A stretch of 64,000 bases of DNA from Diacronema lutheri (lineage: Eukaryota > Haptophyta > Pavlovophyceae > Pavlovales > Pavlovaceae). This document shows positions 269 through 43,762 of the stretch, one piece after another. Each line of letters starts with the position of its first letter. The stretch's first letter is position 1. The position numbers were made by a program, and so were the translations under genes. A model generated the notes under the pieces. That model was not told the DNA's origin. It worked only from the letters and a program-made list of their open reading frames with translations, and did no database searches. The stretch is from positions 1,612,001 through 1,676,000 of the forward strand of contig JAGTXO010000003.1 of NCBI GenBank assembly GCA_019448385.1, in the 5' to 3' direction.

Positions 269-444
269 GAGGTGAAGACGATCGGCGCGCATGACACACC
301 CGCAGACTCTACGCCTGAATCCGATTCTGAGATGTGCTCCCCGCTTCGCGCGCCAGCTCGACAGAACGCGGGGAACCTGCTCGCAAACCCCCCGCGCTCT
401 CGAGCGCAGATCCTGCGCGCCCGCGAGCCTCAAGCGCCCGCCGG

Positions 445-3400
445 CTACGACGGGCCAACGCCAAACGAGCCGAACGCCTGCTCGAACACGGCGGCGTTCT
501 GCGCGACAACGATGCAGATGATGATGTTGGCGACGACCTGAAAGAGGATCACCGAGACGAGCACGCACGCGGCGCACGCGCCGCCGCATTGTACGCGCCA
601 GAGCCGCTCGGGCGTGAGCTGGCGCTGCTGCCGCTGGATCTCAGACTCGATCGCCGCCTTGACGCTCTCGGCCATCGACAGGCGTATCTCGTCGCGCATG
701 ATCGACGTGAAACGGTCCGAGAAGCCCTTGTTGTTACGCGTGCGCTGCGGCTCGGGCAGCACCGGGTACCGGTTGGGCGGCTCGCGCCCCGTGCCGGCCG
801 GCCGCTTGCGCGCAACGTCGATCGGCATCGCCTCGAGAGAGATGGCCACCTCGCCCGCGCTTAATGCGCGCTCCTCGTGTGCGCTTGAGCTCATCATCTC
901 GACCCAGAAGCGCTGCGAGCCGCCCTTTGGCTCGAGAGGCAGCGTGCGGTCGTTCTGCTTGAGCTGCTCCCTCCCAAGCCACGCATTCTTGCACAGCCTG
1001 CTCACGTCGATGCGCGCGCCGGCGATCACCTCACCGTCACCAATCAGCGCGTGGTCCCAGACCTGCATCTCAATGTGCAGCCCTTCGAGCGAGCGGCGCG
1101 AGGTGAGCGGCAAGAAGAGGCGGAAGAGGAAGCGATGGTTGTACAGCGCCTGCCCGTCCACCACGCCCCAGTGCACGTCGGTCTGGTCCTTTTGCGCGGG
1201 CCCGCCGTGCCCAACCAGCCTGCACACAAAATATGGGTCAATTGCGCGGATCGCGCCCGCCTTGCGCAGCCGGCGCGTCTCAAAGATGATCAGCCGCAAT
1301 TCAAACTCCTCGGGCGGTGCAAGAGCGATCTCCTTGTACGGCGCAGCCTTCCACTCCTGGAAGGAGAGTACTTCCACCCACAGGTCGAGCGTGCCCTGAG
1401 CGGCGGCAGCGGTCTCGCGGTAGAGCACCTGCCACACGCACGGGGGGGGGGGGGGGGGGGACCGGCTTTTTTGAGCGGCTTGGGTTTCAGGCGCAGCGCG
1501 CGGCGGGCGGGAGGCAATGCCGCGCGCGCGCGCTGAGCGCTGAGCGCCATGCGTCGGCGCGTGTTTGGCGCGCGTGCGGATCGCACCCTCTTCTCGACGG
1601 GCACCTTTGGCTTCGAGTCGACCCAGCTGCGCGAGAACCAGCGGTCCTCCACATCGAGCTCGGTTGAGCCGAGCTCCTCGTCGAGGAGCGGCACAGCGCC
1701 CGCCTCGATCACCGAGATGCGCACGCGCCCATCGCCCGGCATTCTCGCCTCAAACTCGAAGGATTGGAAGTACTGCGGCTCGAAGGTGCCCTTCACCATC
1801 CGTATCCTGTCCGACACGGTCGTCGAGCCGTGCGTCACGGACAGGTACGTGTTCAAGCCCGTCGGTGCAGCGTCGCCGGAGAGCCACGCAACGTGCGAGC
1901 CGCCACCGCCCACGCCGAATGCGCTCAGTCGCCCGCGCAGCTGACTCGGCGTGCGTGTGCGCGAGAGCTGGTGGCCTCGGAGCACGTACAAACGGATGAA
2001 GACGCGGGCGCTCCCGTCCACGTGCGCCAGGCCGATGGGCGCGAGGAGCGGCAGCGTCCACACGGTCGGCTGCGCGAGTGCGGTCGCGTTGCCGCTCGAG
2101 CTCGCATCGCCGCTCCCGCCGCCATCGCCATTGCCGCCGGTGCCGCCGCAGCCGCCGCGCAAGCTATGCTGTGCGTGCGCGCCGTGCGCGCACGCGTCCG
2201 CGCGCGCGTCGCCGACCGCGCCGCGCGCGCCATCGCCACCGCCCGCGCCCGGCGCTGCTGCACGCGCCGTCGTCGACGCGCCGCCCGCGCCACCCGCGGC
2301 CGCGCCGCCCGCGCCGTGCGAGGCGACGGTGACTGCGAGGGCATACTTGAGCGACGCGACGGTGTGCAGGCCGCCGCCCGCGCGGACGACAAGCGGGCGC
2401 GACGAGTAGGGCGGGCGGATGAGCCTGGCGCCCGTCGACGTGGTCATCTCCTCGAGCTCCGTCATGTGCAGGTGACGGCCGTACGTGAGTACGTCGCCCT
2501 CCTCCTCGGCGCCGAGCTCGGCCGTTGCGGAGACGATCGTCGTCGTCGCGCCATCACCATCGCCATCACCATCACCATCGCCATCGCCATCACCATCGCC
2601 GTCGCCGTCGCCATCGCCGTCGGCGCCCTCGTCCTCGTCGGCGGTGCGTGCACGGCTCGTCAGTGGCCGCCGGCGGCCGCTGCGCTTGAGGGCACTCAGC
2701 AGCCGCCATCGTGCGGCAGCTGCGCGCGGCGGCCTCTCGCCGATGGAATCAAAGTCGACGGCACGCTTTGTCGAGACGCGTCGGCCCATCTGCCGCACGC
2801 CCTCCAACGCCACCGAGCCGTGGGCGATGAGCGGAGCCGGCATCCGCGCGGCGCCCGCCTCGCTCGGCATCGCGCGCGCGAGCCGCTCCTTGCCGCGGCG
2901 GCGCGCGAGCGCGCCGCGCTTTGAGGGCGGCTCGTCTGCGGCGTCAAGGTCGCCCTCCCAGAATATCCTCGCGCGCGCGGGCTTGGGCTGCTGCAGCTGC
3001 TGCTGCTGCGCGCCAGCGGCCCGCGTCGCGTTGCGAGCGGCAGCGCCGGTGCCGGCGCCAAGGATGGCGGGCAGCTTCTTGAGCGAGAGCTGCTTGGCGA
3101 CGGAGACCGTGCGTGACACGCTGCCGTTCGCTCTGCCCTCGCCGCCCTCGCCGCCGCCACCCGCGAGCCCTCGGCTCGCGGGTGGCGCGCGCGGCTCCGA
3201 TTGCGCGCGGCCGGCACGACCAGCGCCGAGCGGGCGCGCAAGCAGGCCGCGGGCAAAGCCTCGACCCGCGCCAGTCCGACCATCGAGCTTGGCCGCGCCG
3301 TCCAAGCCGCCGTCCGCGCACGCCGTAACCGGCGCGCCGCGCGCGCCGCCGGCCACCGCCGCACCGGGCGAGCTCGAGCGGCGACGGTGGCGCGGCACGC

Positions 3401-35676: not shown

Positions 35677-36933
35677 ATGCCACGCTTCAGCCAGTGGGGC
35701 CAGCCCTCGCAGGTCGAGGAGCCAAAGCGGCCGCGGCTGCACGGCGGCGCGCCGCCCGCTGGCGGCTTCGACGCCGGCGCGCTTGGCCTTGACCTGACGC
35801 AGCCGCCTGACTCGCCCGAGCTCGCCGTCGACGCGCCGCCTGCCGTGCCGCCCGACATTTCGCACGAGCTGAGCCAGCGCGTGGCGCTCGGCACGGGCGC
35901 GTTGAGCGCACTGCCCACGTACGACGAGATCCACGCGCGGCTGCAGCGCCTCGACCGCCTCGACGACGCGAGCGTGGGTAAGGCGCTGAGCAAGGCCGAA
36001 GTGCTTCTCCTCCTCACGGCAAACGGCATCAACTCGCACCGCGCGTCGGCGCACAAGGCGACGATCGTGGACGAGCTGCTGCGCGCGCTCAAGCAGCGGC
36101 GCATCGGCGCGACGCTCGCTGACGCGCAGCGCGCGCTGGTGCGTGCTACATCAAGCGTCGACGACGACGACGCGACACTCCCGCCCGACGAGCTTGACGC
36201 GGCAATGACGGACGCGCTCGCGCAGATGGGGCAGCCGCAGCACGCGTCGCCGCGGCCGCCGCCGCCGTTGCCGTCTGCGACGGGCGCGCCTGCCTTTCGA
36301 GCGGCGGCGACGCCTCTGCTGCCCGTGCGCACCAACAGCATGCCCGACGTCGCCGCGCTTGCGCAGCCGCACGCGAGTGCGGCGAAGCGCCGGCGCGGCG
36401 CGCTCCCGCCTGCCTCGCTGACGGAGGAGGAGGAGGACTTTGTGTACCGGCTCGTGACGGGCACGCTCGGCTCGATTGGCGGCGACGGCAGCGATGGCGC
36501 GGCCTCGCGCAGCGTGCAGACGCAGACGGAGCCGCACGCCTTCGCCGCGCCGCGCTCGGCGGGCGGCGCGCTTGCGCCCTACTCGCAGCTCCAGCAGTCG
36601 CAGGCGTGCGTCACCGTTGCGGTCGACTCGCAGCAGCAACAGCTGCAGATGGCGCTGCACAGCAACGCGGCCGGCCAGCACATTGACGATCTTGTGGGCA
36701 AATGCCGCAAGCTGCTCAAGGCGCACCCTTTCGCGCTCGCCGACGACGACATCCGCAGCGCGCTCGCAACGAACGGGCGCAACGTCATGCAGGCCGTCGA
36801 GAGCCTGCGCGCCAAGGCATCGACCGCGTCGGCGAGCGCGCGCGCCGCCGCCGCGACGAGCGGCCCGTTGGGCTCTGCCGCGAGCAGGATGCAGCGCGTG
36901 TGGGACGAGCGTGTCACGCGCGGGCTGCTGTGA
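35677..36933 (+). CDS. unknown, probably nuclear protein with two small helical domains
   Basis: 418 aa in one frame. Near residues 95-150 a helical block (SKAEVLLLLTANGINSHRA, then ATIVDELLRALKQRR) looks like a SAP-type or similar DNA/protein-binding helix pair. A basic patch AAKRRRGAL resembles a nuclear localisation signal. The C-terminal block (IDDLVGKCRKLLKAHPFALA, then ALATNGRNVMQAVESLRAKA) resembles a UBA/CUE-like three-helix fold. Neither assignment is firm. The start ATG lies 86 bp from the divergent neighbour. Confidence 0.55.
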   Translation: MPRFSQWGQPSQVEEPKRPRLHGGAPPAGGFDAGALGLDLTQPPDSPELAVDAPPAVPPDISHELSQRVALGTGALSALPTYDEIHARLQRLDRLDDASVGKALSKAEVLLLLTANGINSHRASAHKATIVDELLRALKQRRIGATLADAQRALVRATSSVDDDDATLPPDELDAAMTDALAQMGQPQHASPRPPPPLPSATGAPAFRAAATPLLPVRTNSMPDVAALAQPHASAAKRRRGALPPASLTEEEEDFVYRLVTGTLGSIGGDGSDGAASRSVQTQTEPHAFAAPRSAGGALAPYSQLQQSQACVTVAVDSQQQQLQMALHSNAAGQHIDDLVGKCRKLLKAHPFALADDDIRSALATNGRNVMQAVESLRAKASTASASARAAAATSGPLGSAASRMQRVWDERVTRGLL

Positions 36934-36973
36934 CCCGCGCCACGACCAACTTGAATATAGTAGCGCGAGGCCC

Positions 36974-38941
36974 ATGGCGGCGCGCGCGCGCTTCCTCTGG
37001 GCGCGGGTCCACCCGTGGCGCGGGCGGTGCGGCATGCGCGCGCCGGCGCGCGCGGCGAGCATGGGCGTGCAGCTCAACGCACGGCTGATGGCCGCACCCG
37101 AGCCCGAGCACGTTCTCGAGCTGCACGGTGCGCACGCAGGCTGCTTTGACGCGGTCAACCTGAGCACCGCGTGGGGCCGGATAAGCCGCGTCGCGGCGAC
37201 GTGGCCGGCGCGGCGGCAGGCGGCCTTCTTCGACGAGCATAGGGACGCGCTCGAGCGGCTGCACGCAAGCATGCACGCGCGCCTCCGTGACTTTGGCGCG
37301 CGCGAGCTCGCCAACACGGCATACGCGTGCGCGTGTCTCCCCAGCGATCCGGCGCTCGCGCTCATGCGCTCCGTGCGCGAGCGCGCGCCGGCGCTCTCGG
37401 CGGACTTCAAGCCGCAAGAGCTGGCGAACATCGCGTGGGGCTTTGCCAAGGCCGGGCTGCGCGCGCCGCCCCTCTTCGAGATGGTCGAGCGCGAGTCCGT
37501 CCGGCAGCTGCGCAACTTTAAACCGATCGAGCTCGCGTCGCTCGCGTGGGCGTTTGCGCGCGACGGGACGGGCAAGCTGAGCAGCTCGGACGCGCTGTTC
37601 GAAGGGATCGCGCGGGAGGCGGAGGCGCGGATCGACGAGTTCAACGTGCGCTCGCTCTTCAACCTCGCGTGGGCCTTCGCCGCGACGCGCCGCGCGGACG
37701 AGCGGCTCTTCGACGCGATCGCACTCGCCGCACTGCCCGTCTGCGACTCGCTCCCGCCGCAGCAGCTCGCGGTGCTCGCGTGGGCGATGGGCCGCGTGCG
37801 CGCGCAGCAGCCGCGGCTCGTCCGCGCCCTCGCCGCCGCTGCCGCGCCGCACGCCAGCCGACTACAGCCCAAGCACATCGTGATGCTGCTGTGGAGCGCA
37901 AACCGGTGCGGCGCGGCCGACGCGCGCGTGCTGCGCGCGCTCTCGTGCGAGGTGGCGCGCACGGCGAAGACGTACTCGGCGCTCGAGCTGGCGCTCGTGC
38001 TATGGGCCTCCGCCGCCTCGCACGCCGCCGACGCTGCGCCGCTCTTTGCCCTCGTTGCGCGCCAGCTCGCGCCGGACGTGCGCGCATGCGAGGGTCGAGC
38101 CCTCTCCCTCCTTGCGTACGCGTCCGCCGTCTCCGGCCACGCGCGCGAGGCGGGGCCACTGCTCGACGCGATCGAGGCGGAGCTGCCCGCTCGCGCGCAC
38201 GCGCTCCGCCTGCCCGACCTCGTCCGCACCGGCTGGGCGCTCGCTGTCGCGCGCCGCTACCCGCCCGCGCTCCTCGATGCAATCGTGTCGCGCGTGAATG
38301 CGCTGCCGTCGACCGCGCTCGCGTGCGAGAGCGTGCAGCTGCGCGTGCAGCTGCACCAGATCAACCTGTCGCTCGCGCTGCTCGTGCCCGCGCACCTCGC
38401 GGGCGCGCTCGCCCTCTCGCCGCCGCACGCCGCGCTCTGCGCCGACGCGCTCCGGCACGAGACTGCGCCGTGCGCTCCGTCAGCCCCCCACTTGACCGTC
38501 TCCGCCGCGCTCGCGCAGCTGCGCGTGGAGCACGAGAACGAGTACGTCGTGCCCGGCCTCGGCTGCACGGTCGATATCGCCGTCTGGCCGCCCACGCGCC
38601 GTGGCGCGCCGCGACGCGCCGATCGTGGCGCTGCATCGGCAGCCGAGCGCGCCGGTGCATCCATGATGCTCGTCGAGGTCAACGGCCCACACCACTACTT
38701 GCCATCGGGTGAGCTTCGCCCGACGAGCGCGCTCAAGCACGCGCAGCTGCGCGCCGCTGGCTGGCGCGTGCTTGTCGTGTGCAACGACGAGTGGCTGGCC
38801 CTGCCCGCTGGGGGCCCGCGCCTCGGCTTCCTGCGCGACCTGCTGCGCGCGGGCGGGCACGCGGGGCCGCGCGCGGGTGCGGCGGCGGTCGTGCGGCGGG
38901 CCAACGACGGGGCGGAGCTGGCTGCGGCAGTAGCCTGCTGA
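36974..38941 (+). CDS. OPR/RAP-domain organelle RNA-binding protein
   Basis: 655 aa. At least seven degenerate helical repeats of about 38 residues carry a W-A-F/W-A-x core: ELANIAWGFAKAG, ELASLAWAFARDG, SLFNLAWAFAATR, QLAVLAWAMGRVR, HIVMLLWSANRCG and ELALVLWASAAS. The C-terminal RAP domain is clear: VDIAVW, MLVEVNGPHHYL, ALKHAQLRAAGWRVLVVCNDEW. OPR/RAP proteins bind and process or stabilise plastid or mitochondrial transcripts. The N-terminus is Arg/Ala-rich without acidic residues, as in an organelle presequence. It starts 41 bp after the preceding stop on the same strand. Confidence 0.8.
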   Translation: MAARARFLWARVHPWRGRCGMRAPARAASMGVQLNARLMAAPEPEHVLELHGAHAGCFDAVNLSTAWGRISRVAATWPARRQAAFFDEHRDALERLHASMHARLRDFGARELANTAYACACLPSDPALALMRSVRERAPALSADFKPQELANIAWGFAKAGLRAPPLFEMVERESVRQLRNFKPIELASLAWAFARDGTGKLSSSDALFEGIAREAEARIDEFNVRSLFNLAWAFAATRRADERLFDAIALAALPVCDSLPPQQLAVLAWAMGRVRAQQPRLVRALAAAAAPHASRLQPKHIVMLLWSANRCGAADARVLRALSCEVARTAKTYSALELALVLWASAASHAADAAPLFALVARQLAPDVRACEGRALSLLAYASAVSGHAREAGPLLDAIEAELPARAHALRLPDLVRTGWALAVARRYPPALLDAIVSRVNALPSTALACESVQLRVQLHQINLSLALLVPAHLAGALALSPPHAALCADALRHETAPCAPSAPHLTVSAALAQLRVEHENEYVVPGLGCTVDIAVWPPTRRGAPRRADRGAASAAERAGASMMLVEVNGPHHYLPSGELRPTSALKHAQLRAAGWRVLVVCNDEWLALPAGGPRLGFLRDLLRAGGHAGPRAGAAAVVRRANDGAELAAAVAC

Positions 38942-39028
38942 CGGCGTGGCCAGCAACTGATGAAAAGTACAATTGTGTGGCAGCCTGCTGGCGGCGTGGC
39001 CAGCGACTGATGAAAAGTACATTTGTGT
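38933..39028. repeat. 50-bp tandem duplication downstream of the RAP gene
   Basis: A 46-base segment at 38933-38978 recurs at 38983-39028 with three mismatches; each copy contains CTGATGAAAAGTACA. The first copy includes the stop codon of the RAP gene. The duplicated segment is far less GC-rich than its surroundings and lies between two convergent genes, so a role in 3' end formation is possible. Confidence 0.85.
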
Positions 39029-39114
39029 CACCGATCCTCCGCCCCGACGACGCGGCGCTGGGGCAGCGCTCGTCGGACACGTGCCATCGCGTCCTCGCGG
39101 CTCGACGCTCCGGC

Positions 39115-39459
39115 TCAACGCTCGTACAGGCCGGGCGGGGCAAAGCCGCGCTGGCGGCAGAGCGAGGGCGGCGCGGGAGCATTCGTGTCGGCCGCCAGTG
39201 CGCCGCCCGTCGAGAAGGAGCGGAAGGTCGGCTCGTCGTCCTCGATCTCGTACGCAATGTTGCGCGAGATGCCAGCCGAGAAGTGGTACGCGGGGGGCGG
39301 CTCGTCCTCGATGACCAGGTCGTCGACGTCACCGTCCGAGTGGTCGCTGGCGGCTCGGCGAAAGATGGGGCGGTCACCGTCAAAGCCGACGAGCACCACG
39401 CCGCTCGCCGCGCCGCGCTCCTCGCCCGTCTCGCCCGGAAGCAGCGCGCCGTGGTCCAT
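39115..39459 (-). CDS. small acidic protein of unknown function
   Basis: 114 aa from the ATG at 39459 (MDHGALLPGE). It has a DGDVDDLVIEDEPPPAYHFS stretch, then NIAYEIEDDEPTFRSF and a C-terminal GFAPPGLYER. Two similar acidic blocks (IEDEPPPAYHF and IEDDEPTFRSF) look like an internal duplication. An in-frame ATG at 39570 would start 11 bp from the divergent AAA ATPase ATG, so I prefer 39459. Family not recognised. The balanced composition, unlike nearby shadow frames, supports it as real. Confidence 0.45.
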   Translation of the reverse strand: MDHGALLPGETGEERGAASGVVLVGFDGDRPIFRRAASDHSDGDVDDLVIEDEPPPAYHFSAGISRNIAYEIEDDEPTFRSFSTGGALAADTNAPAPPSLCRQRGFAPPGLYER

Positions 39460-39470
39460 CTCCGCCCCCC

Positions 39471-39525
39471 TTTGGAAGCTCGATGCTGTGTCCTTTGTCG
39501 ATGTTCCCAGGGTCCAGCTTCCAAA
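39471..39525. promoter_or_regulatory. 10-bp perfect inverted repeat in a divergent promoter
   Basis: TTTGGAAGCT at 39471-39480 pairs with AGCTTCCAAA at 39516-39525 across 35 bases. It sits in the 122-bp spacer between the small acidic gene (-) and the NSF-like gene (+). The arrangement suits a dimeric-factor site for both promoters; function is inferred. Confidence 0.4.
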
Positions 39526-39581
39526 ACGGGGCGGCAGGTGGGTCCCATTTTCAAACTCGGCGTGGTCCATCAGGGGGCGCC

Positions 39582-42386
39582 ATGCTGGCGCTCGTCTTCT
39601 ACTCAGCGGTCGCGGCGAGCGCGCACAGCCCTGCCCTCGCGCGAGCGTTTCATGCAGTCTGGCGCGAGCCAGTGCGTGCACAGCTCCGCCCGCACGAGCC
39701 AGTCCGAGTTGCGAGAACGCCTAGGGCGAGCGCGCGCGCGCACAGCGCGTCCGCGGTGCGCGCCGCGGTGGGCACGTCCGAGCCGGCACACGCAGCGCTC
39801 GGCCCGGTCGTGCGCGCGGCGCGCGCGGCGATCGACGAGTGCACGGGCCGCGGCACGGAGAGCAGCGGCACCGGCCGTGTCGAGTGGGGCACGTGGTTGG
39901 ACGCCGACCTGCGCTGGCGCGCGATCGACGCGCTCGACAACGTGTGCGTCGCCCTCGACGGCGAGGCCGCGTGGGCGCGGCTCTGTGCGCGCTACGGCGC
40001 CATCGACGCACCGGTCTCGCTTCGCGTCGCGGGCGACGACGAGGGCAAGCGTTGGGACGTGCTGCTCCACCTATTGCCCGCGCAGTCGTCCGAGCTGCCC
40101 GGCCAGCCGGGCGACCTCGGCCGCGTCGTCAAGCCGACGACCGGCACGCTCACCCTCCTCAAGCCGCTGCTTGGCACGACGCGCGTCACCAAGCTGCGGC
40201 TCGACCGCGATGACCGACTGCAGCCGATCGGCGTCGCGACGGACGCGGTTGGCGCGGGCTACGGCTCGCTGGGGGGCAGCGGCGCGCGCGGCGCAGCCGC
40301 GGAGAACACAACGGTCGTGCTCGGTGGACTTCACCAGCACACCGCCGGCCGGCTCGGCCGCGCGGCGCTCCTCGAGGTCGTGCTCGCGCCGCCGCACGCG
40401 GACGCGGCCGAGCGCGTGCCGCCATTGCCGGCGTGCGCGCGCCTCGACGTCGACGCGGACGCGGAGCTGGGCGCGCTCTTCGCGCGGCTGGGTGATGCGG
40501 ACGCGCTGCGGCGTGCGGCTGGCGGTACGGCCGGCGAGACGGCCGCCGAGTCGGCGCGCCGCCTCTCGGCGGCCGGCATCGGCACTGGTGGCGGCGGCAG
40601 CGGACTGTCTGAGCAGGTGGGCGGGCTTGAGGCGCAGCTGGGCGCGATCGTGCGGCGAGTGCTCGCGTCGCGCGCGAGCCCGGAGGCGGCGGCGCGGCTC
40701 GGCGTGAGCCACGTGCGCGGCGTGCTGCTCTCCGGCCCGCCAGGCTGTGGCAAGACGCTGCTCGCGCGCGAGCTTGCGCGCCAGCTCGGCGCGCGCGAGC
40801 CGCAGGTCGTCAACGGGCCCGAAGTGCTCTCCAAATTTGTGGGCGAGGCAGAGGCGAACGTGCGCCGGCTCTTCGCGCCCGCCGCCGAGGAGTATGCCGC
40901 TGCCGGCGCCGCGTCCGCGCTGCACGTCATCATCCTCGACGAGATGGACGCGATCGCGCGCGCGCGCGGCTCGAACAGCGGCGACACGTCCGGCGTGCGC
41001 GACTCTGTCGTCAACCAGCTTCTCGCGCAGATGGACGGCGTGAAGGCCGCGCCCAACGTGCTCGTGATCGGCTGCACCAACCGGCCCGAGCTCATCGACC
41101 CGGCGCTTCTCCGGCCGGGACGCCTCGAGGTGCAGCTCGACGTTGCGCTGCCCGATGGTGCGGGCCGACGCGACATTTTGCGAATTCACACGCGCGCGAT
41201 GCGCCAGAACGGCGCACTCGCGCCCGACGCGTGCGCGCTCATCGACGGCGCCGACGGCACCGACGGCGCCGAGCGCAACCTCGCCGCGCGCACCGAGCAT
41301 TTCTCGGGAGCAGAGCTCGCGGGCCTCGTGCGGTCGGCGGCATCATTTGCACTCGCGCGCGCGTCGCTCGCCGCCGCGTCCCGCGCGGAGGGCGCGGCAG
41401 TGTTGGCCGGCGCGCCGTCGCTCGAGGCGGAGTCCGTTGCCGTCCGCGCCGCCGACTTTGAGCGCGCGCTCGCGGAGGTGACGCCCGCGCTGGGCAAGCG
41501 CGACGCGCAGCTTCAAGCGCGATTTGCGCTCCACGGTGTCGCGCCGCTCGCCGACGCGCAGCGCGATGCGCAACGTGCGCTCCGCCTCTTCGTCGCGGCG
41601 GCGACGCGCGCCGCGCCCGGTGGCGGCGCGCGCGTCCATTCGCTTCTCGTGCTTGGCGAGGGCGCTGGCGCCGGCGCGACTGCCGCGGGCGCGTGGGCGA
41701 CGTGGCACGCGTCGAAGAGTGGGTGCGTGCAGTACGCGCGAATCCTCACACCGCTCGACGTGCTCGGCGCTGCGGACGCAGAGTCGGCGCGCTGCGCCGC
41801 GCTCGCCGATCGGTTCGCCGAGGCGCGCTCGCTCGGCCGCGCCGCGCTGCTCCTCGACGACGTCGACCGCATGCTCGACGGCTCGCCCGCGCTCGCGGCC
41901 GCGCTGCGCGCGCTGCTGCGCGAGCCGCTCGTCGGCGCGCGCGGTGTGGCGCGCGGCGCGAACGGCGGCGAAGACACGCGCGCCGCGCCTGCTCTCATCG
42001 TGATCGGCACGTGCTCCGACCCGGTCGCCGCGCGCGCGCTCGCGCTCGGCCCGCTCTTTGGGGCGGCGGTGGCGCTGCCCCTCGTCGGCGCGGCGCCGCA
42101 CGCGGCCACGGCGCTCGAGCACTCGGCCGCGCTCGGGCTCGCGCCCGCCGCCGCGCACGCGCTCGCCGCCGTCGCGCTCGCCGAGCTCGGCCCGCTCGGC
42201 GTCAAGACGCTCCTCGCGCTCGCCGAGCGCGCGTGCGCGCTCGCCGCCGCCGCCGCCGACGTATCTTCGCCCGACGCGCGCGACGTCGCGCTCGCGCTTG
42301 GGCTGTCGGCCGGCTCGCCGCTCGCCGAGCTGCAGCTGCGTGCCATGGAGCTCGCGTGCCGCGAGCAAAGGCTGGGGGCTCTGTGA
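39582..42386 (+). CDS. NSF-like AAA ATPase with a plastid-type presequence and degenerate D2
   Basis: 934 aa. The D1 domain is clearly of the NSF/Sec18 type: SGPPGCGKT near residue 385, VVNGPEVLSKFVGEAEANVR, Walker B HVIILDEMDAIARARGS, then GCTNRPELIDPALLRPGR. D2 aligns with NSF D2 (YARILTPLDVLGAADAESA; LLLDDVDRMLDGSPAL; VIGTCSDP), but its Walker A is lost (LLVLGEGAGAGATAAG, no GKT). NSF separates SNARE complexes. The N-terminus is unlike NSF: a hydrophobic MLALVFYSAVAASAHS segment reaching ALARAF, then a Ser/Arg/Ala-rich stretch, which fits a bipartite plastid-targeting signal with Phe at the cleavage junction. A 200-residue region of unknown fold replaces the usual N domain. D1 retains its ATPase motifs and D2 looks structural. 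Confidence 0.75.
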   Translation: MLALVFYSAVAASAHSPALARAFHAVWREPVRAQLRPHEPVRVARTPRASARAHSASAVRAAVGTSEPAHAALGPVVRAARAAIDECTGRGTESSGTGRVEWGTWLDADLRWRAIDALDNVCVALDGEAAWARLCARYGAIDAPVSLRVAGDDEGKRWDVLLHLLPAQSSELPGQPGDLGRVVKPTTGTLTLLKPLLGTTRVTKLRLDRDDRLQPIGVATDAVGAGYGSLGGSGARGAAAENTTVVLGGLHQHTAGRLGRAALLEVVLAPPHADAAERVPPLPACARLDVDADAELGALFARLGDADALRRAAGGTAGETAAESARRLSAAGIGTGGGGSGLSEQVGGLEAQLGAIVRRVLASRASPEAAARLGVSHVRGVLLSGPPGCGKTLLARELARQLGAREPQVVNGPEVLSKFVGEAEANVRRLFAPAAEEYAAAGAASALHVIILDEMDAIARARGSNSGDTSGVRDSVVNQLLAQMDGVKAAPNVLVIGCTNRPELIDPALLRPGRLEVQLDVALPDGAGRRDILRIHTRAMRQNGALAPDACALIDGADGTDGAERNLAARTEHFSGAELAGLVRSAASFALARASLAAASRAEGAAVLAGAPSLEAESVAVRAADFERALAEVTPALGKRDAQLQARFALHGVAPLADAQRDAQRALRLFVAAATRAAPGGGARVHSLLVLGEGAGAGATAAGAWATWHASKSGCVQYARILTPLDVLGAADAESARCAALADRFAEARSLGRAALLLDDVDRMLDGSPALAAALRALLREPLVGARGVARGANGGEDTRAAPALIVIGTCSDPVAARALALGPLFGAAVALPLVGAAPHAATALEHSAALGLAPAAAHALAAVALAELGPLGVKTLLALAERACALAAAAADVSSPDARDVALALGLSAGSPLAELQLRAMELACREQRLGAL

Positions 42387-42468: not shown

Positions 42469-43762
42469 ATGGGCGGCGACGAGGGCGCGAACGTGCCGCT
42501 CGACGCGCGCGCGCTACTCGCGCAGGCGCGCGCGCCGGCGCCGGTGGGCGACGGCGTCGAGCGAGCGGACGTACTCGAGTATGACCTCGGCGCGCTTTGC
42601 GCCTTCGATCCGTCGCAGATCGACGAGGCCGCGCTCGCCGCCGGCGCGGAGGCGTGGCTCGCCGACTCGGCGCGCGACTGCACGCAGCTGCTCTTCAACC
42701 GGCTGTGGGCGACGGCGGACGGGCAGGCGGGTGACAAGGGCGTCATTTCACTGCCCGCCCCCGCCTTGCCACTCCCGCGCGAGAAGCCGCTGCCCAAGCC
42801 GCCCGCGCCGACGCGCTGGGCCAAGTTTGCACAGGAGAAGGGGATCGTCAAGAAGAAGCGCGAGCGCATGATGTACGACGAGCTGCAGCAGAAGTGGATG
42901 CCGCGGTACGGGTACAAGCGGCACAACTCGGACGATGCCGAGTGGGTCCTCCCCGCCAAGAGCACCGACTTGCCCGGCTCCGACCCGTTCGAGGAGAAGG
43001 CGCGCCTCAAGGCCGAGCAGCGCGGCCGCCAGCGCTTCAACGAAGAGCGCAACCGGCGCGCGGCGAAGCGTGGCGCGGCGGGTGGTGCGGCGGCGTCGCC
43101 GCCGGTTGGCGTGCCCGAGCTGCGCGCCGCCATGCCGAGCAAGGAGCAGCGGCTGAAGCAATCGGACGGCGCGCTGGTGCGTGCGCCGCAGTGCGTGCGT
43201 GGCTCGGACGTTCCGATCGTTGCTCGGGCCCCGCTGCTCGTTGCTCGTGTGCATCCGCGCCCATGCGCCGTGCTGCCCTCACGCCACTCGCCCCTGCGCC
43301 CCGCGACCGCGTCGCCCGCAGCACGTCGCGCAACGCGCGACGGCCTCGCTCGGCAAGTTTGACCGCGCGCTCGCCAATGAGCCGAGCCGCGCGCGCGCGA
43401 CCAAGCGCAAGTTTGAGGACAACTTGCCGATGGATCTTGCGCAAGACAAGTCGAAGGGGCTCAAGGTGATCGACAAGCTGCTCAAGGCGGGCGGCGCGCA
43501 GCTCGACGCGGGCAAGGCCGCGCGCCTTGGCCAGCAGGGGCACGAGCGCGCCAACCGCGAGGCCCGGGCGGCGCGTGACGTCGGTGCGCCTCGCGGCCGC
43601 GGTCGCGGCGGCGGCGGCGGGGGCGGCGGCGACGGCCGCGGTGGCCGCGGTGGGAGCGGCCGTGGCGGTGGGGGCGGCCGTGGCGGTGGGGGCGGCCGCG
43701 GCGGTAGCGGCCGCGGCGGCTCAGGCGGGAAGGGCCGCGGGCGCGGAGGAGGCCGGCGCTGA
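42469..43762 (+). CDS. RRS1: ribosome biogenesis protein RRS1
   Basis: Exons 42469-43176 and 43322-43762 give 382 aa; the intron is 145 nt (donor GTGCGT). RRS1 helps recruit 5S RNP and mature the 60S subunit in the nucleolus. Conserved blocks: EYDLGALCAFDP, TQLLFNRLW, LPLPREKPLPKPP, TRWAKFAQEKGI, KWMPRYGYKR and after the intron ATASLGKFDR. The C-terminus is a Gly/Arg-rich RGG tail of about 50 residues, typical of nucleolar proteins. The ATG at 42469 is the first real ATG; the frame is open slightly further upstream. It follows the AAA ATPase on the same strand by 82 bp. Confidence 0.88.

Follow-up and report, generated by a model that had tools for sequence, protein, structure and literature searches.

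A divergent NSF-like AAA+ protein with a signal-peptide-like start and a degenerate D2 domain in the haptophyte Diacronema lutheri

Introduction

NSF is mostly a singleton across eukaryotes according to the available text of PMC5070193, and two NSF are marked in Leishmania and Trypanosoma (PMC5070193, Table 1). A window of the Diacronema lutheri genome (the whole stretch of DNA analyzed here, 64,000 nucleotides at 1612001-1676000 of contig C4; the published assembly is given as 73.25% GC in the accessible part of PMC8379373) contains a gene starting at position 39582 that had been described, from its letters alone, as an apparently plastid-targeted NSF paralogue with a dead D2 ATPase site. The question raised by this locus is whether it encodes a genuine member of the NSF family and, if so, whether such a protein would still serve vesicle fusion or would have another task in a complex plastid. 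In the literature, searched at the level of titles and abstract openings, we found neither a plastid NSF paralogue nor an AAA-cupin fusion, and PMC5462543 makes no mention of NSF, AAA, vesicle or SNARE.

Gene structure and genomic context

Translation confirmed an open reading frame that runs from the ATG at 39582 to a stop ending at 42386 and encodes 934 residues without an internal stop, just as the sequence-only reading had placed it. The frame stays open back to another in-frame ATG at 39483, and the segment between the two (39483-39581) looks noncoding, with a GC3 of 0.58 compared with 0.80 in the next stretch and 0.90 in 39822-40611. Because this segment is noncoding-like, a coding-like gene occupies the minus strand from about 39459, and the frame contains no additional ATG between 39582 and D1, 39582 is likely to be the true start in preference to 39483. 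Some caution about this start is suggested by the codon score, which is low across 39582-39740 (residues 1-53) and becomes positive from about 39750 (it was scored as far as about 40380). An alternative spliced 5' exon appears unlikely; the divergent gene lies so close that there is hardly room for one. The features of the locus and of a second paralogue described below are listed in Table 1.

Several other elements were observed around the gene. The next gene downstream (42469-43362, plus strand) encodes the ribosome biogenesis protein RRS1 (PF04939, E 1.3e-47) and has no evident link to the 39582 gene. Upstream, a long open reading frame at 36494-38941 on the plus strand presumably resembles a RAP-domain protein, and a pair of similar direct repeats, each some 50 bases long and found by eye, lies at 38925-39030 between this frame and the divergent gene.

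Table 1. Features of the 39582 gene, its flanks and the C77 paralogue (positions refer to the window unless a contig is named)
Feature	Position	Strand	Basis
Divergent neighbor gene, coding-like, no Pfam family	39115..39459	-	codon score and Pfam
Short gap separating the two divergent genes; presumed bidirectional promoter	39460..39581	.	inference
NSF-like AAA+ paralogue of 934 aa in a single open exon	39582..42386	+	frame translation, Pfam, PDB matches, D1 tree
Signal-peptide-like segment MLALVFYSAVAASAHSPALARAF, presumably cleaved before F	39582..39650	+	sequence, LHC comparison
Arg/Ser/Ala-rich transit-peptide-like stretch	39651..39821	+	composition only
N' region (also present in C77); probable degenerate PCO/ADO-like cupin	39891..40481	+	profile and alignment comparisons
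D1 AAA domain, NSF clade	40602..41381	+	Pfam, PDB phmmer, tree
D1 Walker A GPPGCGKT	40734..40757	+	motif
D1 pore loop SKFVGEAE (NSF: YVG)	40830..40853	+	motif; NSF YVG from the available text of PMC6160233
Linker and degenerate NSF-type D2	41382..42383	+	shuffle-tested alignment
LGEGAGAGAT at the former D2 Walker A, lacking Lys	41652..41681	+	alignment, motif
D2 Walker B-like LLLDDVDRM, kept	41847..41873	+	alignment, motif
D2 sensor-2 LGPLGVKT, Lys as in NSF D2	42186..42209	+	by eye; outside the shuffle-tested alignment in the PDB rows
C77 non-canonical NSF-like gene (L037)	G000:C77:78000-82000, about 306-2455		translation, Pfam, alignments

D1 belongs to the NSF clade

The claim that D1 keeps all ATPase motifs of NSF was borne out: in addition to GPPGCGKT and the aromatic FVG pore loop, the domain has VIILDEMDA, TNRP and RPGR, and judged by these motifs it would be ATPase-competent. 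Pfam detected an AAA domain at residues 381-521 (E 3.2e-36) plus an AAA lid, and no protease family was present among the best 25 of 26 Pfam families. In a phmmer search against PDB, NSF (3j94) spanned D1 and D2 in a single stretch (residues 346-782, E 1e-83), and the top rows were Cdc48 chains (best E 9.8e-86). Because both Cdc48 AAA domains match D1 of the 39582 protein, the rank of PDB matches alone is indecisive between NSF and Cdc48, and the assignment is decided by the tree. This tree comprised 27 AAA domains, i.e., 21 from other loci of the same genome, the 39582 gene and five PDB rows (NSF, Sec18 and Cdc48); neither the L038 copy (see below) nor shorter pieces were included. The 39582 gene, the gene on contig C77, the alga's own NSF, NSF 3j94 and Sec18 formed one clade (5 of the 27 rows, 100/100), separate from CDC48, and the 39582 protein branched outside the three canonical NSFs.

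Other AAA+ genes in this tree also have presequences. The genes L010 and L017, both of which we take by eye to be FtsH-like, resemble the 39582 gene in combining a signal-peptide-like presequence with an AAA domain, but they belong to another AAA clade and, as noted above, the 39582 protein has no detected protease family. Two CDC48-like genes, L020 (G000:C28; signal-peptide-like start) and L016 (G000:C86), paired together beside CDC48 D1 (92/80). They may represent the two variants of sCdc48 (SELMA) which, according to a portion of PMC5070193, are usual for haptophytes. The symbiont-derived p97 of complex plastids, as sCdc48 of SELMA is described in the same portion of that paper, is similar to the 39582 protein in being a Cdc48-family AAA+ protein with a signal-peptide-like start in an alga with a red plastid; however, D1 of the 39582 protein groups with NSF and not with CDC48 or with the sCdc48 candidates L016 and L020.

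D2 is homologous to that of NSF and has no Walker A

The second AAA domain is homologous to NSF D2, since none of 1000 shuffles scored as well in any of three comparisons (own NSF, 3j94 and Sec18). As had been proposed, it preserves NSF signatures (LLLDDVDRM and the GVK of sensor-2) without a Walker A, LGEGAGAGAT being located where NSF reads EGPPHSGKT. The sensor-2 Lys is a feature of NSF D2 (PMC5070193), and the domain serves nucleotide-dependent hexamerisation in NSF according to the available text of the same study. Thus, the 39582 protein shares with NSF/Sec18 the D1 clade, the D1-D2 order, the Walker B-like motif and the sensor-2 Lys of D2, whereas it differs in the absence of the D2 Walker A and of the SNAP-binding N domain and in the presence of a signal-peptide-like N-terminus.

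The ordinary NSF and a further divergent paralogue

When the genome was searched with D1 of the 39582 protein, 69 matches were obtained, each piece being counted separately. The strongest match apart from the gene itself was on contig C30 (60% identity, E 7e-68), followed by C5 (L024) and C77 with nearly equal E-values; L024 was outside the NSF clade in the tree. The C30 gene matches CDC48_N at 32.0 bits (below the cut-off of 35.1) and CDC48_2 at 26.8 bits (above 22.4), and has D1 and an intact D2 P-loop, GPPGAGKT. By this domain content, it is the ordinary NSF of the alga. Because an ordinary NSF with NSF-N and a complete D2 P-loop is present, the 39582 gene is a paralogue, in agreement with the sequence-only reading.

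The gene on C77, which is new here, has a first exon that starts MATIVWRASALLCAVGGASASVAHRF, followed by a proposed 104-base intron and a second exon, with a total of 682 codons including the stop. It appears to encode a signal-peptide-like start, the same non-NSF N-terminal region (N'), an NSF-type D1 and, in place of D2, a SAM-like domain (SAM_1, E 1.3e-4, 22.7 bits compared with a cut-off of 23). A diverged D2 at this C-terminus was not supported, as 999 of 1000 shuffles aligned as well. A frame-disrupted, closely similar copy of this gene (L038, G000:C78) was found near a contig end.

Topology tests on D1 did not reject the 39582 and C77 genes as sisters (p-AU 0.40). A haptophyte-only duplication of the own NSF was rejected both for the group of 39582, C77 and own NSF (p-AU 0.0007) and for 39582 with own NSF (p-AU 0.0002); it should be noted that these values rest on three canonical NSFs only, that most other rows came from the same GC-rich genome and that the groups were chosen only once the tree had been inspected; the result may therefore be an artefact. 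In viral contigs scanned with the whole 39582 protein, 20 pattern matches contained no relatives.

The N-terminal region is probably a degenerate cupin

The N domain of NSF had been thought to be replaced by an unrelated region. The first part of this claim stands: an origin of the region from NSF-N was not supported for either paralogue, as 602 of 1000 shuffles scored as well in the comparison of the 39582 protein with the own NSF N domain and 774 of 1000 did so for C77. The region is, however, better described as a degenerate PCO/ADO-like cupin common to C77, although the match is weak. The N' stretches of the two paralogues aligned with a score of 90 (shuffled, 45.8 +/- 7.7; 1/1000 as good). 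Pfam assigned no family, including PF07847, to the N region of the 39582 protein. In C77, PF07847 (PCO_ADO) was the sole family returned for the N' stretch alone (E 0.0075) and was matched at E 0.054 with the whole ORF, both under the Pfam cut-off. When C77 was searched against PDB with phmmer, plant cysteine oxidase 5 appeared twice over the N' stretch (E 1.5 and 1.7), at ranks 5 and 6 of 7 behind four other weak matches.

A model combining the alga's own PCO with plant cysteine oxidases 2, 4 and 5 of the PDB gave 10.3 bits for N' of C77 (0/5000 shuffles as good) and 0.9 bits for N' of the 39582 protein (20/5000). Among 1790 ORFs of the fetched DNA, the C77 ORF (8.4 bits) was outscored by one other ORF (8.7 bits). 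A profile of the two N' stretches scored 22.0 against the PCO profile, compared with 11.9 +/- 2.1 for shuffled columns (0/300 as good), 11.8 for the reversed profile and 11.1-16.7 for seven decoy pairs, and the hhalign probability of this match was 2.2%. The profile alignment placed TGTLTLLKPLLGTTRVTK on GMTVLSKLVYGSMHVKS and AALLEVVLAPPHADAAER on CAILDILAPPYSSEHDR. In this alignment, the motifs of the cupin core are collinear with those of PCO/ADO thiol dioxygenases (PF07847), but N' is fused to an AAA domain, and neither paralogue has the HxH iron ligands; the third His alone is aligned, such that two of the three iron-ligand His are missing. AlphaFold2 without an alignment gave no usable model (pLDDT 31.7 for the N' region and 37.8 for D1-D2). 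These weak but repeated matches lead us to favor, with reasonable though incomplete assurance, a degenerate PCO/ADO-like cupin. The genome search yielded one PCO/ADO gene (L065 on C69, with HDH ligands), and its family is a possible source of the N' region.

The presequence resembles those of light-harvesting proteins

The 39582 protein starts with MLALVFYSAVAASAHSPALARAF and continues with HAVWREPVRAQLRP, which fits the earlier description of a signal-peptide-like start ending in ARA-F before a Ser/Arg-rich stretch. We compared it with presequences of light-harvesting (LHC) proteins of the same genome: from 52 LHC matches, 20 starts were taken, 12 of them were readable from one exon (8 were dropped), and the 9 distinct ones were tested. 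These genes begin with MLALSVAALAF, MFAQIAVAALAF and similar sequences. All nine are uncharged at positions 2-12, their hydrophobic maxima lie at 1.78-2.48 and, judged by eye, they finish with AF, AY or SF; the 39582 presequence has a maximum of 2.22, no charge and ARA-F. Within the window, 582 ATGs open at least 60 codons, of which 25 reach the hydrophobicity of the 39582 start, 6 are also uncharged and one, the 39582 gene itself, also has AxAF; as the thresholds were the gene's own values, chosen post hoc, these counts indicate an unusual start and not a class. With the same thresholds, 5/9 LHC presequences reach the hydrophobicity, 6/9 have AxAF as coded and 2/9 pass all three. A resemblance of the presequence to LHC presequences is supported, and plastid entry of the protein is plausible.

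The start of C77 is signal-peptide-like but has no Phe at the presumed site, and by eye it is nearer to that of an sCdc48 candidate (MMGRTAALLAIVAGTSGAVA). The same kind of start without Phe was seen in L010 (MMKLFVTCALAHAGCASS; presumably FtsH-like) and in L020 (MMGRTAALLAIVAGTSGAVAHG), which we take to be an sCdc48 candidate. According to the accessible text of PMC12136025, plastid proteins are recognizable by Phe or a comparable residue at +1 and periplastid ones by its absence, a rule that may not apply to Pavlovales.

Possible functions and alternative explanations

Two SNAP-family genes were found in the genome. One (L043, G000:C36) is a single-exon gene without a signal peptide that we label a gamma-like SNAP, and the first exon of the other is not readable. 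NSF uses its N domains together with SNAP to keep the SNARE complex above the D1 pore (as described in part of PMC6160233). With the SNAP-binding domain gone and the gamma-like SNAP devoid of a signal peptide, the proposed vesicle fusion or SNARE-type role, like SNARE disassembly by the 39582 protein, is not supported. D1 could act on SNAREs via another adaptor.

Because both the partnership of N domain with SNAP and the nucleotide-dependent D2 hexamerisation are missing in the 39582 and C77 proteins, we view them as re-purposed unfoldases rather than SNARE recyclers. Specifically, we give about even chances to their being NSF-derived AAA+ unfoldases that no longer work on SNAREs, have acquired a new substrate receptor and act in the secretory-plastid route. 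The precursor would enter the ER and thence the complex plastid (stroma or periplastid space). N', a probable cupin without a full iron site, would be the docking domain that delivers the substrate (possibly the N-terminus of a protein) to the D1 pore, where D1 alone would do the work as a threading motor. D2 would be a nucleotide-free structural ring or scaffold and, in C77, the ATP-locked D2 would have been replaced by another oligomerising module, the SAM-like domain. A more far-reaching version, which we hold only tentatively, is that these organelle-directed unfoldases form a haptophyte lineage whose separation from canonical NSF predates, or was unrelated to, any duplication within haptophytes, possibly with a red-algal-endosymbiont origin like that of sCdc48, with a pseudo-thiol-dioxygenase receptor that reads protein N-termini and with a D2 that was either inactivated or exchanged for a SAM oligomeriser.

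Other explanations have to be considered. The most serious of them, though still unlikely, is that the presequence is not a plastid signal and instead leads to the ER, vesicles or the cell surface, serves as a membrane anchor or is a mitochondrial presequence. The basic Ala/Arg/Ser stretch would fit mitochondria too, and the C77 start without Phe is closer to the sCdc48 candidate; on the other hand, the first 12 residues of the 39582 protein are uncharged and hydrophobic as in 9/9 LHC presequences, and F comes after a small residue, which also holds for most of these presequences. We would attach rather little weight to a decaying or mis-modelled gene, i.e., a functionless degenerating NSF duplicate or one that misses a 5' exon. 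The dead D2 and the low codon score over residues 1-53 could be read in this way, but the frame of 934 codons is unbroken, the codon score is positive from about 39750 to about 40380, D1 is intact, a second divergent paralogue has the same N' region, and there is little space for a 5' exon before the divergent gene.

It is similarly improbable, if anything slightly more so, that the 39582 protein is a periplastid or plastid membrane-traffic factor which does in the complex plastid what NSF does in the cytosol, namely disassemble vesicle fusion complexes. Its D1 is in the NSF clade and its start is signal-peptide-like; in addition, periplastid vesicle fusion has been conjectured (in part of PMC5756292), and a chloroplast vesicle system including SNAREs has been predicted for plants (in the available text of PMC4171996 and PMC4028247). 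However, the SNAP-binding N domain is absent, of the SNAP-family genes, L043 lacks a signal peptide and the second has the unreadable first exon, and the same part of PMC5756292 allows for a loss of SNAREs from a system of this kind.

Implications

If the reading of the 39582 and C77 proteins as re-purposed unfoldases is true, an NSF offshoot without the SNAP-binding domain would operate in the endosymbiont route, and a SNARE machine would have been redeployed on another substrate, in addition to the known case of Cdc48 in SELMA. N' would be a possible case of a thiol-dioxygenase-like domain serving as an AAA+ receptor. The 39582 protein provides a concrete case for asking whether complex plastids hold fusion or unfolding machinery of vesicle-traffic origin. 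Our data hint that this alga carries, beside a normal NSF, two offshoots whose start resembles an address tag for export or for the plastid and which are missing the part that NSF uses to grip its usual partners, as if an old vesicle machine had been rebuilt for another job.
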